Origin: Planctomycetota bacterium
Lineage (GTDB): Bacteria > Planctomycetota > Phycisphaerae > UBA1845
Assembly: GCA_024280855.1 (NCBI GenBank)
Contig: JAJRPG010000082.1
Span: 1-64,000 of the forward strand
Direction: 5' to 3'
DNA: 64,000 nucleotides
Under the pieces are notes generated by a model. It did not search any database and was not told the DNA's origin. It was given only the letters and a program-made list of their open reading frames with translations. Shown piece by piece: positions 27,529 through 53,308 of the stretch; position 1 is the first letter of the stretch, and the number at the start of each line of letters is the position of its first letter. Made by a program: the position numbers and the translations under genes.

Positions 27529-28269
27529 TTAAGCCTGCGACGTATCTACAACTTCTTCATGGGCATCGAAGCCATACCGCCATCGAGCCAACCGCTCAGG
27601 TGAAATGCCCAACCAATACGCAGCAATAATGGCTTGATTTCGTAGCGTCGTCCGCCATATGCCTTCTGACTCCCAGCGCCGTGAAGATGTGATAACGCTC
27701 GACCCAGCTATGTAAATTTTTCCAAGTTTTCGCAATCGGCGGGCGAATACAAAATCTTCCATCACCGGCAACGCAGGAAAACCGCCAAGCTGGTGAAATG
27801 TTCCTGCCTTCACAAAAATAGCTTGGTCCCCGTATGGCAGCTGCAGCCACCGCGATCGATAGTCAACCATTTTTTCTATCAAACGATAAGCCCGCTTTTG
27901 TGAATCTATTCGCAACCGAAAAGCCCCCGCCACGACGCCAGGCCGATTCAATACATCCTCAATCTCATGCTCAAATCCACATTGTAATTGTGAGTCAGCA
28001 TGAATAAACAATAGTGAATCGCCAGTAGCCGCCGCCGCCCCGGCATTTAACTGGCAACCTCGGCTAGGCTCAGATACGACGACCTTAGCGCCATGCGCTC
28101 GAGCAATAGCCTCCGTATCGTCATCACTCTGGCCATCAACCACGATGATTTCCCGGATATTTGCCGTAGTCAATCCCTTGAGCGTCCCAGAAAGCACGCC
28201 GCTCTCATTCCTCGCTGGAATTACGATTGACAAATCTACGCCCAAAATTCGATCCTTATCGAAAACCAC
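27529..28269 (-). CDS. Family 2 glycosyltransferase, TIGR04283-like
   Basis: 246 residues with LSIVIPARNESGVL, VVDGQSDDDT and IHADSQLQ, the nucleotide-sugar and metal-binding pattern of GT2 enzymes; the D-x-D equivalent is HAD in IHADS. MEDFVFARRLRKLG and the preceding GGFP region fit the family called rSAM/selenodomain-associated transferase 2 (TIGR04283), later linked to arsenosugar synthesis. The translation starts at GTG 28269. The usual partners are not in the window. The family's association with selenium-related genes is a mild contextual note for the UGA-containing DUF3179 gene 1.7 kb away. Confidence 0.85.
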   Translation of the reverse strand: MVFDKDRILGVDLSIVIPARNESGVLSGTLKGLTTANIREIIVVDGQSDDDTEAIARAHGAKVVVSEPSRGCQLNAGAAAATGDSLLFIHADSQLQCGFEHEIEDVLNRPGVVAGAFRLRIDSQKRAYRLIEKMVDYRSRWLQLPYGDQAIFVKAGTFHQLGGFPALPVMEDFVFARRLRKLGKIYIAGSSVITSSRRWESEGIWRTTLRNQAIIAAYWLGISPERLARWRYGFDAHEEVVDTSQA

Positions 28270-28497: not shown

Positions 28498-29130
28498 TTG
28501 ACCAAGTTAGTGCCCAATGGGAGGCATTCGATACGCTATGAGCAGGAGTCTAAAAGCTTGAAGACAAAGCACTCACGCTCGGAATTCCTTGAGCTATTGG
28601 AGCCTATCAAAGATCAATTGTATCGCTACGCCCACAGGGCGACATGGCAGGTGGACGACACCGCTGATGCCATACAAGAAGCCGTGATGACTGCTTGGAA
28701 ATCGTTCTCTCGTTACCAACCCGGGACCAATTTTCGAGCGTGGATTTTTCAGATACTGGTATTCACAATCTACCGATTTAACAAACAGTCGGTAAGACAC
28801 CGCAGTGTCGCATTGGATGATATCGGCGATGATTTTCAGGTGACGATGGACCAGGAAGAATCCTGGTCATACCTGCTCGATCATCCAGATAAACTCCGGG
28901 AGCTTTTGGATGATCGACTCGTCGCAGCCTTGGAGCAGCTAGGTCAGGACGAACGGCAGTGCATACTGCTTAGACTATTAGAAGATTTTTCATATAAAGA
29001 AATCGCCAACATGATGAATATTCCGCTAGGGACCGCGATGTCTCATGTATATAGAGCCAGAAAAAAGTTGCGGCAAACATTAGCCTCACTAAATATGGAA
29101 AACCGCCGAGCCAAGGAGAAGGCATCATGA
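28498..29130 (+). CDS. ECF-type RNA polymerase sigma factor
   Basis: About 210 residues. Region 2 (LYRYAHRATWQVDDTADAIQ..., FRAWIFQI) and region 4 (ALEQLGQDERQCILLRLLED, FSYKEIANMMNIPLGT) are clear. There is no ATG near the N-terminus; TTG 28498 is the longest start and GTG 28510 or TTG 28558 are alternatives. The stop overlaps the anti-sigma gene by 4 bases. A TATAAT at 28459-28464 lies upstream, but I see no good -35 for it. The regulon is unknown; the DUF3179 gene just downstream is a candidate member. Confidence 0.9.
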   Translation: MTKLVPNGRHSIRYEQESKSLKTKHSRSEFLELLEPIKDQLYRYAHRATWQVDDTADAIQEAVMTAWKSFSRYQPGTNFRAWIFQILVFTIYRFNKQSVRHRSVALDDIGDDFQVTMDQEESWSYLLDHPDKLRELLDDRLVAALEQLGQDERQCILLRLLEDFSYKEIANMMNIPLGTAMSHVYRARKKLRQTLASLNMENRRAKEKAS

Positions 29131-29894
29131 AATGCCACGAAGCTCAGAAATTTTTCAGTCCGTATCTGGACTCAGAGCTGGACCAAACCAAAACCTTTGA
29201 GGTTAGTCAACACTTACAAAGCTGCGAAGCTTGCGCGCATCGCTTTGAAGCAGAACGTCGCGCCGACAATCTCATGGCTGAATCGCTTGCCCAAGGTTCG
29301 ATGCCCAAGCAGACATGGTCGCGCATCCAAACCACAGTCGCTCATCCATCCTGGTTACAGCGATTAGTCTCACCGCGCAGCTTAGCCCTAGCCGCCTGCC
29401 TGGCACTGGCCCTTACGGCCTTGATGATGAGTCCTCGAAACACTGTGCAAGCGCAGCCCTGGCTGGTTTCCGAATTAGCCAGAGTTTCCCAAACCGCGAC
29501 AACATTTCCTGTTACATCAAAACCGTCAGACGAATCACAACGCGAGATACTCACACGATTTGGCATTTCATTTGAAAGCCTCACGCCCGAAGCCATGCGA
29601 CCTCACGGAAATTTTGAACTGGTCTCCATCGTAACCAAGCAAGACAATAAGGGCCAAAACTACTACGAAGTCAGACTTAACTGCTGCAACCACCCCGTAC
29701 TCTTAGCCATCACCGATTCAAACACCCCGTTGATGCCCGCACCTTTCGCGGACATCCCCGAAGAAGCCCTCGGTGCCAGCGTCATCATTGGCAATACCCA
29801 CTTAGCCGAGCGAAATACTGGCGCGTTCATAGTCGCCGCAGCCTCAACGCACCATATCAACCACTTATTAAACAGAATGGTGTCTGCGGATTAA
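29127..29894 (+). CDS. Zinc-finger anti-sigma factor
   Basis: 255 residues. The N-terminus CHEAQKFFSPYLDSEL and HLQSCEACAHRFE give the HxxxCxxC zinc-binding anti-sigma motif, which holds ECF sigma factors inactive. A membrane helix follows at about residues 85-102 (LALAACLALALTALMM), then an extracytoplasmic domain of about 150 residues without a family I recognise. It is translationally coupled to the sigma factor by an ATGA overlap. Confidence 0.88.
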   Translation: MKCHEAQKFFSPYLDSELDQTKTFEVSQHLQSCEACAHRFEAERRADNLMAESLAQGSMPKQTWSRIQTTVAHPSWLQRLVSPRSLALAACLALALTALMMSPRNTVQAQPWLVSELARVSQTATTFPVTSKPSDESQREILTRFGISFESLTPEAMRPHGNFELVSIVTKQDNKGQNYYEVRLNCCNHPVLLAITDSNTPLMPAPFADIPEEALGASVIIGNTHLAERNTGAFIVAAASTHHINHLLNRMVSAD

Positions 29895-29957: not shown

Positions 29958-30776
29958 ATGACACCATCCCGACACAAAAATCGATTAGCGTGGTGCTGCG
30001 TCATACCTATTGTTGGATTATCCTTCCTTCTGCTTTATCGCTCTGTTAGCTCTAACACCGCCGACATCATGTTCCAACTGTCTCACGGGCAGCATACCCA
30101 ACCCGCCGATGTATTCCTGAAATACTATTTCGACGGCGACAAACAATACCTTTGGGCCATCGGGCCTAAAGTGCCTGATGACCCTTCTTCCGAATGGTTT
30201 GATATGACAGGCTCTCCGCTTGATCTGAAGAAAATCAATCATGGCCTGGGACGTGACGACATTCCCGCTATCGACAATCCGTTTTTCGTCACGCCAGACG
30301 ATAAGCGACTATTAAATAAATGGTCTAAGTACATCAAAGATAGCAGCGACGAACTGCCGGTCGTCGGATATGTACACAACGGCGTCGCCCGCGCTTACCC
30401 ACTACACATTTTATACCGACACGAGTTAGTCAACGACACCGTTGGCGGAAAGCCCGTCACCATAGGCTGGTGACCACTCGCCGGTTTGTCCGTCGTGTAC
30501 GGACGTCAGGTCAATGGCCAAACCACAACTTTTGGCACGACGGGGTACACCTACAACAATCTATTTCTACTCTACGATAGACTTACGGAATCGGTATGGT
30601 ATCCCATGCAAGACGGCTCCATCGACGGCATCGGCGGGTCACAACTAGGCCAGCGCATAACTTTCATTGAAGAACCGCCAATCGTTTCTCTAAAACAATG
30701 GCGCGAGCTACATCCTGAAACTATGGTTCTGCTAGACGACGCAGCATCCGTCATTCCCGCGAAGGCGGGAATCTAG
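29958..30776 (+). CDS. DUF3179 protein with in-frame UGA at the conserved Cys (candidate selenoprotein)
   Basis: A secreted or membrane-anchored protein of the DUF3179 family, function unknown. Residues 1-30 are a signal or anchor. IPAIDNPFFV, ARAYPLHILYRHELVND and GGKPVTIGW are family motifs. TGA at 30471-30473 (codon 172) interrupts the frame, which continues in phase as PLAGLSVVYGRQVNG to 30776. In the family this stretch reads VTxxCPLxGxxxVxxR, so the TGA replaces the conserved Cys. A stem-loop follows at 30488-30504. If UGA is not read as selenocysteine the gene is a nonsense-mutated pseudogene. The C-terminus ends in a repeat (SVIPAKAGI), so it is also shortened compared with the family. 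Confidence 0.7.
30471..30504 (+). promoter_or_regulatory. Candidate bacterial SECIS element after in-frame UGA
   Basis: UGA at 30471-30473 is followed after 14 bases by a perfect 6-bp stem GTCCGT (30488-30493) and ACGGAC (30499-30504) around a 5-nt loop CGTGT. A flanking T-G wobble extends it to 7 bp. The apical loop begins 20 bases after UGA and has G as its second base, which fits the loose bacterial SECIS rules (short stem, loop about 16-37 nt from UGA, G in the first two loop positions). The fit is suggestive, not proof. Confidence 0.5.
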
Positions 30777-31034
30777 CGCGTTGCCAACTTCAGCCGGGTG
30801 TGTGACAGCTTTGGCAAGCATCTTTCAGCGCACAGGGCGCGAGCCCTGTGGCCATCCTGGTGTCGCGGAAGCGCTATGCTTGTACTCATCCGTGTCCGCA
30901 GGCTTGCGCCCACGGCTCTGATACCGCGTACCGCTGTCATGGTGGAATCGATACACCCGTCAAAACTGTCACACACCCACTTCAGCCCAAGACTGAATTC
31001 CAGCTCCCGATGTACTTCGGGATGGGAATGACGG
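30748..31034. repeat. 287-bp composite inverted-repeat element (MITE/REP-like)
   Basis: The ends are inverted 11-mers: CCGTCATTCCC (30748-30758) and GGGAATGACGG (31024-31034). The left end forms ATTCCCGC-GAAG-GCGGGAAT (30753-30772). Inside are a perfect hairpin CACAGGGC-GCGA-GCCCTGTG (30831-30850) and an inverted pair of about 20 bp with two mismatches (30796-30815 against 30959-30978). It encodes no transposase. It supplies the last codons and stop of the DUF3179 gene. It accounts for most of the gene-free stretch 30777-31100. Confidence 0.65.
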
Positions 31035-31100
31035 GAAATAAAGTCCCCAATAGATTTTCTCAATAACGCCTTATCGTTTGAATCGAAATCTCGAACAACC

Positions 31101-52259: not shown

Positions 52260-52685
52260 ATTCGTATCACTATTATCAAGAGTTCAACATAGCTAGGATC
52301 ACTACTACGATATCGACTGATAACGTCACGCAGTCTCGCTAGAAACGTCATCTAATCTGCAATTCTCTACAAGTTTGATGCACCACCAAACCACACACGG
52401 TGCATTGCCCCAGAAGATCTTCCCAATAAAGAAGGCTCTACATCTCCGCATCGGGATCATTATTGCGCGGCTTGAGATAGAAAAAGCTTACGGCTAATCA
52501 TATCAGGACTAAACCCCAATATTGCTGTAAACCCCCTACGCAATCCTCGTCTTTGCAACTCGGCATAATCACCTAGCTGCTCACCAATCGCCTCGCCATC
52601 TGTATCGGAGTCGGTACATGATTGAATTCGAATCGTTTATTGTTCGCCTGGTTACAGTCAGCAGCAGTCGAAGTCGATAGTTGGA

Positions 52686-52717
52686 TTGTACAAATTGTAA
52701 GATACGGTTGTACAAAT
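52686..52717 (+). promoter_or_regulatory. Direct-repeat palindromic sites upstream of cheX
   Basis: TTGTACAAAT occurs twice, at 52686-52695 and 52708-52717, centres 22 bp apart (two helical turns). Each contains the 8-bp palindrome TTGTACAA, so a dimeric regulator binding twice on one DNA face is plausible. A TATATT at 52728-52733 lies just downstream and could be a -10. The rest of the 548-bp gap between cheW and cheX (52260-52807) holds no gene I can support. Confidence 0.45.
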
Positions 52718-52807
52718 GTAGAGCTGTTATATTTTTCCTTGGGTTATGGTCGGGCATGTACCAGGGATATATTATTGCCCAAGCTGACGTGATGGAGCTG
52801 TGATACT

Positions 52808-53308
52808 ATGAATGTAAGATTTATAAACCCTTTTATTGCATCGATCTGTAATACGCTGGAAACGATGTGCGCTACAAAGGTGACTATCGGAAAGCCTTCG
52901 CTCAAAGGCGATAATGATGGCTCTACAGATGTGTCAGGCGTCATCGGATTCTCAGGTGATGCTGCTGGTAGCTTGGTCCTACACTTCAGTTTTGATGTAG
53001 CTTCTGCCATCGCAAGTAAATTTGCAGGTTGCGAAATTACGCAAGATCATGAAGATTTTTCTGATGCCATTGGTGAATTAGCGAACATGGTAGCTGGTGC
53101 GGCTAAAGCACAGTTCGAAGGATTGAACGTTTCGATATCACTACCCAACGTCGTAGTTGGAAAAGGTCATAACGTTACTTCATCCAAGGGTGAGAAGCGC
53201 GTGATCATTCCATGCGAAACCGAAGTTGGAAATTTCATGGTTGAGGTAGGTATGATTATCAAAAAAGCATCTGAATCCAGACAAGCGGTCGCGGCTACGG
53301 GAGCATAG
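52808..53308 (+). CDS. cheX: CheX-type CheY phosphatase
   Basis: 166 residues with the CheX fold pattern: MNVRFINPFIASICNTLETM at the start, VIGFSGDAAGSLVLHF in the middle, and the catalytic E-x2-N motif in AIGELANMVAGAAK. CheX dephosphorylates CheY-P. The CheY gene follows four bases downstream, so the pair may form a signal-termination module. It is divergent from the cheW-cheY operon. Confidence 0.92.
   Translation: MNVRFINPFIASICNTLETMCATKVTIGKPSLKGDNDGSTDVSGVIGFSGDAAGSLVLHFSFDVASAIASKFAGCEITQDHEDFSDAIGELANMVAGAAKAQFEGLNVSISLPNVVVGKGHNVTSSKGEKRVIIPCETEVGNFMVEVGMIIKKASESRQAVAATGA

Follow-up and report, generated by a model that had tools for sequence, protein, structure and literature searches.

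A predicted selenocysteine-containing branch of DUF3179 proteins in the Phycisphaerae (Planctomycetota)

Introduction

Selenocysteine (Sec)-containing DUF3179 proteins are already listed as a selenoprotein family, with the motif UxxC/T (PMC9312934, PMC13188914), and a 2026 review attributes them to the Olavius symbiont study of 2007. The locus analyzed here belongs to the same Pfam family, PF11376, and has its in-frame UGA at the same conserved Cys position. It was identified in a 64,000-nucleotide stretch of DNA (from here on, the window) of an assembly of 4.56 Mb in 112 contigs, which named relatives assign to the Phycisphaerae (Planctomycetota). A preliminary description, made from the letters of the window alone, had left open whether Sec forms of DUF3179 had been described; they are in the literature cited above, and this is not a new selenoprotein family. 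In what follows we argue from sequence comparison that the window almost certainly carries a genuine selenoprotein gene, in which UGA would be read as selenocysteine through SelB and tRNA-Sec under the direction of a hairpin, and that it belongs to a branch that differs from the listed forms.

The gene and its genomic context

The coding frame lies on the plus strand at positions 29958 to 30776 and gives 272 residues, with Sec at residue 172 (U172). It is open except for a single TGA at 30471-30473 (codon 172) and is closed by a TAG at 30774-30776, and both the letters and the translation bear out this part of the preliminary description. The sequence around codon 172 reads ...GGKPVTIGW-U-PLAGLSVVYGRQVNG..., and the read-through product matches PF11376 with an E value of 8e-39 and 134 bits, far above the gathering score of 27 bits. 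The match runs from residues 99 to 261 and covers positions 1-150 of the 292 of the profile; the orthologs are short too, and Pfam membership does not require full coverage. The organism uses the standard code, since TGA closes 14 of the 43 large open reading frames in the window. No other TGA read-through frame in the 64 kb was of such quality. The remaining candidates sit at the junctions of neighboring genes or overlap a gene, with the exception of a weak frame at 52622-53305 that has no Cys-like context.

A dispersed repeat (30742-31043), with GTCATTCCCGCGAAGGCGGGAAT-type ends and 47 whole or partial matches in the genome, overlaps the gene at its 3' end: the final codons (PAKAGI) and the stop codon come from the left end of the repeat. 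The protein was initially thought to have been shortened by this repeat. The comparison with the same-genus ortholog (L063), which ends in ...VLLDDAASVIE* where the window protein ends in ...VLLDDAASVIPAKAGI*, does not bear this out, as there is no truncation.

Upstream, on the same strand, there is an ECF sigma factor gene (28498-29130) followed by an anti-sigma factor gene with a zf-HC2 domain (29127-29894) that ends 63 nt before the DUF3179 start. A related sigma gene is found beside Sec-DUF3179 in several other loci, and related ECF sigma/anti-sigma pairs adjoin several members of the clade. The TIGR04283-type glycosyltransferase reported nearby is real (27529-28269, minus strand; 250 bits against a cut-off of 182), and 7 of 37 Sec-DUF3179 loci have a homolog of it close by. 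These arrangements suggest a regulatory or functional link between DUF3179 and its neighbors.

Selenocysteine machinery

All four genes of the Sec machinery, for which a genome search had been proposed, were recovered from the assembly of the window, as expected for a bacterial selenoprotein, and the absence of selB or selC is refuted. The tRNA-Sec gene (selC) was detected by ARAGORN with the anticodon TCA, selB scored above its curated cut-off, selA adjoins selB (it was identified by translation beside selB, without a family search), and selD carries one in-frame TGA of its own. A deiodinase-like gene with an in-frame TGA (SYTUPPF; L009, 3525-4187) adjoins selA/selB in the same genome. There are exactly two DUF3179 genes in this genome, each with one TGA at the motif and neither a Cys copy; the second (L018) reads GGKPVTVGW-U-PLAQLSVVHGR, with the UGA at the same column. 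Among the 28 genomes with listed UGA forms, selB was found in 26; completeness is 81% and 85% in the two remaining ones. This co-occurrence is consistent with Sec decoding, but it is confounded by descent and provides no independent evidence, since selB is present in almost every genome of the family, with or without DUF3179.

Conservation of the selenocysteine position

DUF3179 was found in 147 of 397 genomes of the class Phycisphaerae. The in-frame TGA falls at exactly the same column in all 37 UGA-bearing loci examined in the class (35 further listed matches with an in-frame TGA plus the two genes of the genome itself), always within GW-U-P or close variants. Over a wider range of relatives, the 80 loci from the named search had UGA in 49 cases and Cys in 31, and when duplicates were removed and the loci from the class search were added, the resulting 121 distinct sequences had 62 Sec, 53 Cys, 3 Ser, and 3 Asn at this column. 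The alignment of homologs supports the anticipated UGA/Cys pairing at codon 172, with UGA in the closer homologs and Cys in the more distant ones, which is the pattern expected for a bacterial selenoprotein. Profiles of the Sec and Cys forms match with a probability of 100 and an E value of 1e-52, aligning U172 to C115 of the Cys form. Sec forms were found in Planctomycetota, Chloroflexota, Nitrospinota, Acidobacteriota, Thermodesulfobacteriota, and records filed under Myxococcota; no relative was found in viral contigs. On the tree, the Sec state changes seven times, with strong support on few of the deciding branches, and within the Phycisphaerae branch all 43 sampled sequences have Sec. For Sec gain versus loss of the second Cys, the tree provides only three independent pairs on starred branches. 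Among the 50 Uxxn sequences, the fourth position of the motif was occupied by A, V, D, S, or E (mostly A, V, D, or S in the clade).

Several individual records deserve mention. In six long planctomycete DUF3179 proteins (L034, L038, L039, L040, L042, and L046), the first Cys is replaced by Ser or Asn and the second is retained (YSPLCDS, YNPLCDS). The DUF3179 sequence of L106, titled Alphaproteobacteria bacterium (IP29b_bin.190), is the same as that of G022, from the window's own family, and the assembly is probably mislabelled. In L087, a near named homolog, the reading frame is lost shortly past the hairpin and close to the contig end, probably through an assembly fault.

The part of the gene downstream of the UGA appears to evolve as coding sequence. 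Between the window and the same-genus ortholog, dN/dS was 0.111 before the UGA and 0.128 after it, and in six other pairs the value past the UGA ranged from 0.03 to 0.26. Comparative data of this kind indicate a translated and constrained 3' part, in agreement with the early impression that it is kept as in a working gene.

The predicted SECIS hairpin

The predicted bacterial SECIS hairpin (GUCCGU-CGUGU-ACGGAC, plus strand) occupies positions 30488-30504. As first noticed, it begins 14 nt past the UGA and has a G among the first two loop bases, namely at loop position 2. The stem has 6 bp, the loop is CGUGU, the distance from the UGA to the apical loop is 20 nt, and the energy in a 21-nt context is -8.3 kcal/mol. 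The length, the spacing, and the apical-loop G fit the bacterial SECIS model summarized in PMC13188914. Numbering the T of the TGA as nucleotide 1, the six pairs (18-34 to 23-29) are intact throughout the 37 sequences (222 of 222 cells), whereas slid controls were 15 to 46% paired. Compensatory changes on both sides were seen at three of the six pairs, a level of covariation reached by none of 500 shuffles. It should be noted that the hairpin overlaps conserved codons (LSVVYGR), so its conservation is partly a protein constraint, and for this reason we give more weight to the contrast with the Cys genes than to raw conservation. Non-Sec relatives mostly do not have the hairpin: in a fixed 21-nt window, a fold of -7.5 kcal/mol or lower was found in 59 of 62 Sec genes versus 6 of 59 non-Sec genes.

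The single-sequence fold of the 63-nt region had nothing unusual (z of -0.86); the hairpin is significant only through the comparison between sequences. It ranks among the weaker ones, and an Rfam search retrieved neither a SECIS nor any other credible match. In the proposed check against bacterial SECIS elements, the fit to the published model and the covariation hold, but the bare stem fails a stricter scan: a search for strict perfect stems accepted 38 of 62 Sec genes and 3 of 59 non-Sec genes and missed the 6-bp hairpin of the window.

Protein architecture and possible function

The AlphaFold2 model (mean pLDDT of 88) consists of an N-terminal helix, residues 7-42, and a beta domain with Sec172 at the end of a strand. 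The helix (29976-30083, plus strand) coincides with a hydrophobic stretch in the translation and is a predicted transmembrane helix or signal anchor. An extracytoplasmic place is likely for the protein, because the paralog and many relatives start with signal-like sequences. The window protein has Cys only at residues 13 and 14, within the membrane helix, so that the mature domain has none. Most members of the clade likewise have Cys only near the N terminus, the exceptions being L054, L064, L076, and the divergent L053 and L058. This last group (ASWUPSEQTIVVHDR) has a conserved CxxC end (CEHC or CDHC) with possible partner thiols. His155 and Glu156, in the motif HELVND, are nearly invariant across the Sec forms. 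Long Cys forms, including L142, show an apparent internal duplication in which the second half repeats a VxGxxxxGxARAYP...strand pattern, and the Sec branch retains the first unit alone.

Structural comparison of the models pointed to Rieske domains. With VIA-align they filled the first 24 rows for the Sec model (best Z of 6.4, 92 residues, 3.2 Å) and, independently, the first 28 rows for the model of a Cys form (best Z of 7.2), both scores being below 8. Foldseek gave no E value under 0.001 for either model, and nothing was found by sequence search of the PDB or by profile comparison with Rieske proteins. The CxH...CxxH cluster ligands that define Rieske proteins are absent, and homology by profile is unsupported. 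A shared fold between DUF3179 and Rieske domains is possible from the models, and membership is not claimed. Judged by chain ranges, the Sec loop may lie outside the Rieske cluster loops.

Taken together, these data are compatible with the following scheme. The UGA at 30471-30473 would be decoded as selenocysteine by SelB and tRNA-Sec, with the hairpin at 30488-30504 directing the process, and these decoding steps are strongly supported by the comparisons. The product would be a membrane-anchored, probably extracytoplasmic DUF3179 protein, with Sec at the site where most relatives carry the first Cys of a CPLC motif. The mature domain has no Cys, which rules out an internal Se-S bond, and the selenol may act as a redox (or metal-binding) residue. 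Since a lone Sec cannot form such a bond, it would have to rely on an external reductant, on a mixed bond, or on metal binding, and an outside thiol or reductase might regenerate the selenol. Our best guess for the function is that of a redox enzyme acting outside the cytoplasm through a lone selenol.

Alternative explanations

One objection is that the TGA is a fresh nonsense mutation in a pseudogene, or a miscalled TGC or TGT. The repeat at the gene's 3' end would fit such decay, and one sequence alone cannot exclude it. However, this codon is UGA in both paralogs and in dozens of genomes that were assembled independently, with purifying selection past it (dN/dS of about 0.13), making a misread very unlikely and this explanation as a whole extremely improbable. 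Genuine termination would give a protein of 171 residues, with the 3' part translated separately or by occasional read-through only, and UGA is indeed a normal stop in this genome. Against it, the 3' part is half of a conserved domain within one fold and is itself under purifying selection, the hairpin covaries, and the Sec machinery is present, so we consider termination very improbable. That UGA has been reassigned, e.g., to Trp or Gly, would also open the frame, but it closes many genes of the window, the only read-through frame with the context of a Cys family is this one, the homologs carry Cys and not Trp or Gly at the column, and there is a gene for tRNA-Sec(UCA); the chance of reassignment is next to nil.

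A different kind of alternative leaves Sec decoding as it is and concerns the function only. Instead of cycling as a redox selenol, Sec could be a ligand of a metal or cluster in a Rieske-like fold. Both the Sec and the Cys models have Rieske domains as their best matches over 92 residues, and the near invariance of His155 and Glu156 would also suit a metal site. The missing ligand motif, the negative profile comparison, Z scores under 8, and the chain ranges that seem to set the Sec loop apart from the cluster loops speak against it, and we regard it as unlikely. The lone redox selenol remains our preferred reading. A broader proposition, that the branch combines Sec in every sampled member with a Rieske-like scaffold devoid of Rieske ligands, a CPLC pair replaced by a lone Sec, and mostly Cys-free mature domains, is put forward only tentatively and is open to considerable doubt. 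Should it be true, it would mean that the planctomycete envelope hosts single-selenol chemistry, which a zinc-finger anti-sigma/ECF switch might control. With no partner Cys, fewer kinds of chemistry are possible, and the Rieske-like predicted model offers a first structural lead for DUF3179.

Comparison with known systems

Rieske [2Fe-2S] domains (2qpz, 3dqy, 4aiv) are the best structural matches to both predicted models, over 91 to 98 residues at ca. 3 Å, but they have the CxH...CxxH ligands that are absent here, and there is no sequence-profile similarity. The Cys-DUF3179 proteins, such as L142 from Myxococcota, the Cys form to which U172 was aligned, carry the two Cys of CPLC and, in addition, a second half similar to the first, which the Sec branch does not have. 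The listed Sec-DUF3179 proteins have Cys or Thr three residues past the Sec (UxxC/T), whereas the window protein has UPLA, a predicted N-terminal membrane helix, and a match confined to the first half of the Pfam model. We found no description of a short, Sec-only planctomycete branch with UxxA/V/D/S in the accessible literature, and it may already sit in annotation databases. What looks new is therefore the branch: UxxA/V/D/S, single repeat, membrane or export targeted, with Sec in all the sampled sequences and usually no Cys in the mature domain. It is arguably a new subfamily. Genes of this kind would come out split or truncated from annotation pipelines in which UGA counts as a stop codon. 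The branch would add a large Sec-only group to the known selenoprotein family and, next to the Cys-DUF3179 proteins, would provide naturally occurring Sec/Cys pairs with which the reason for using selenium there could be tested.
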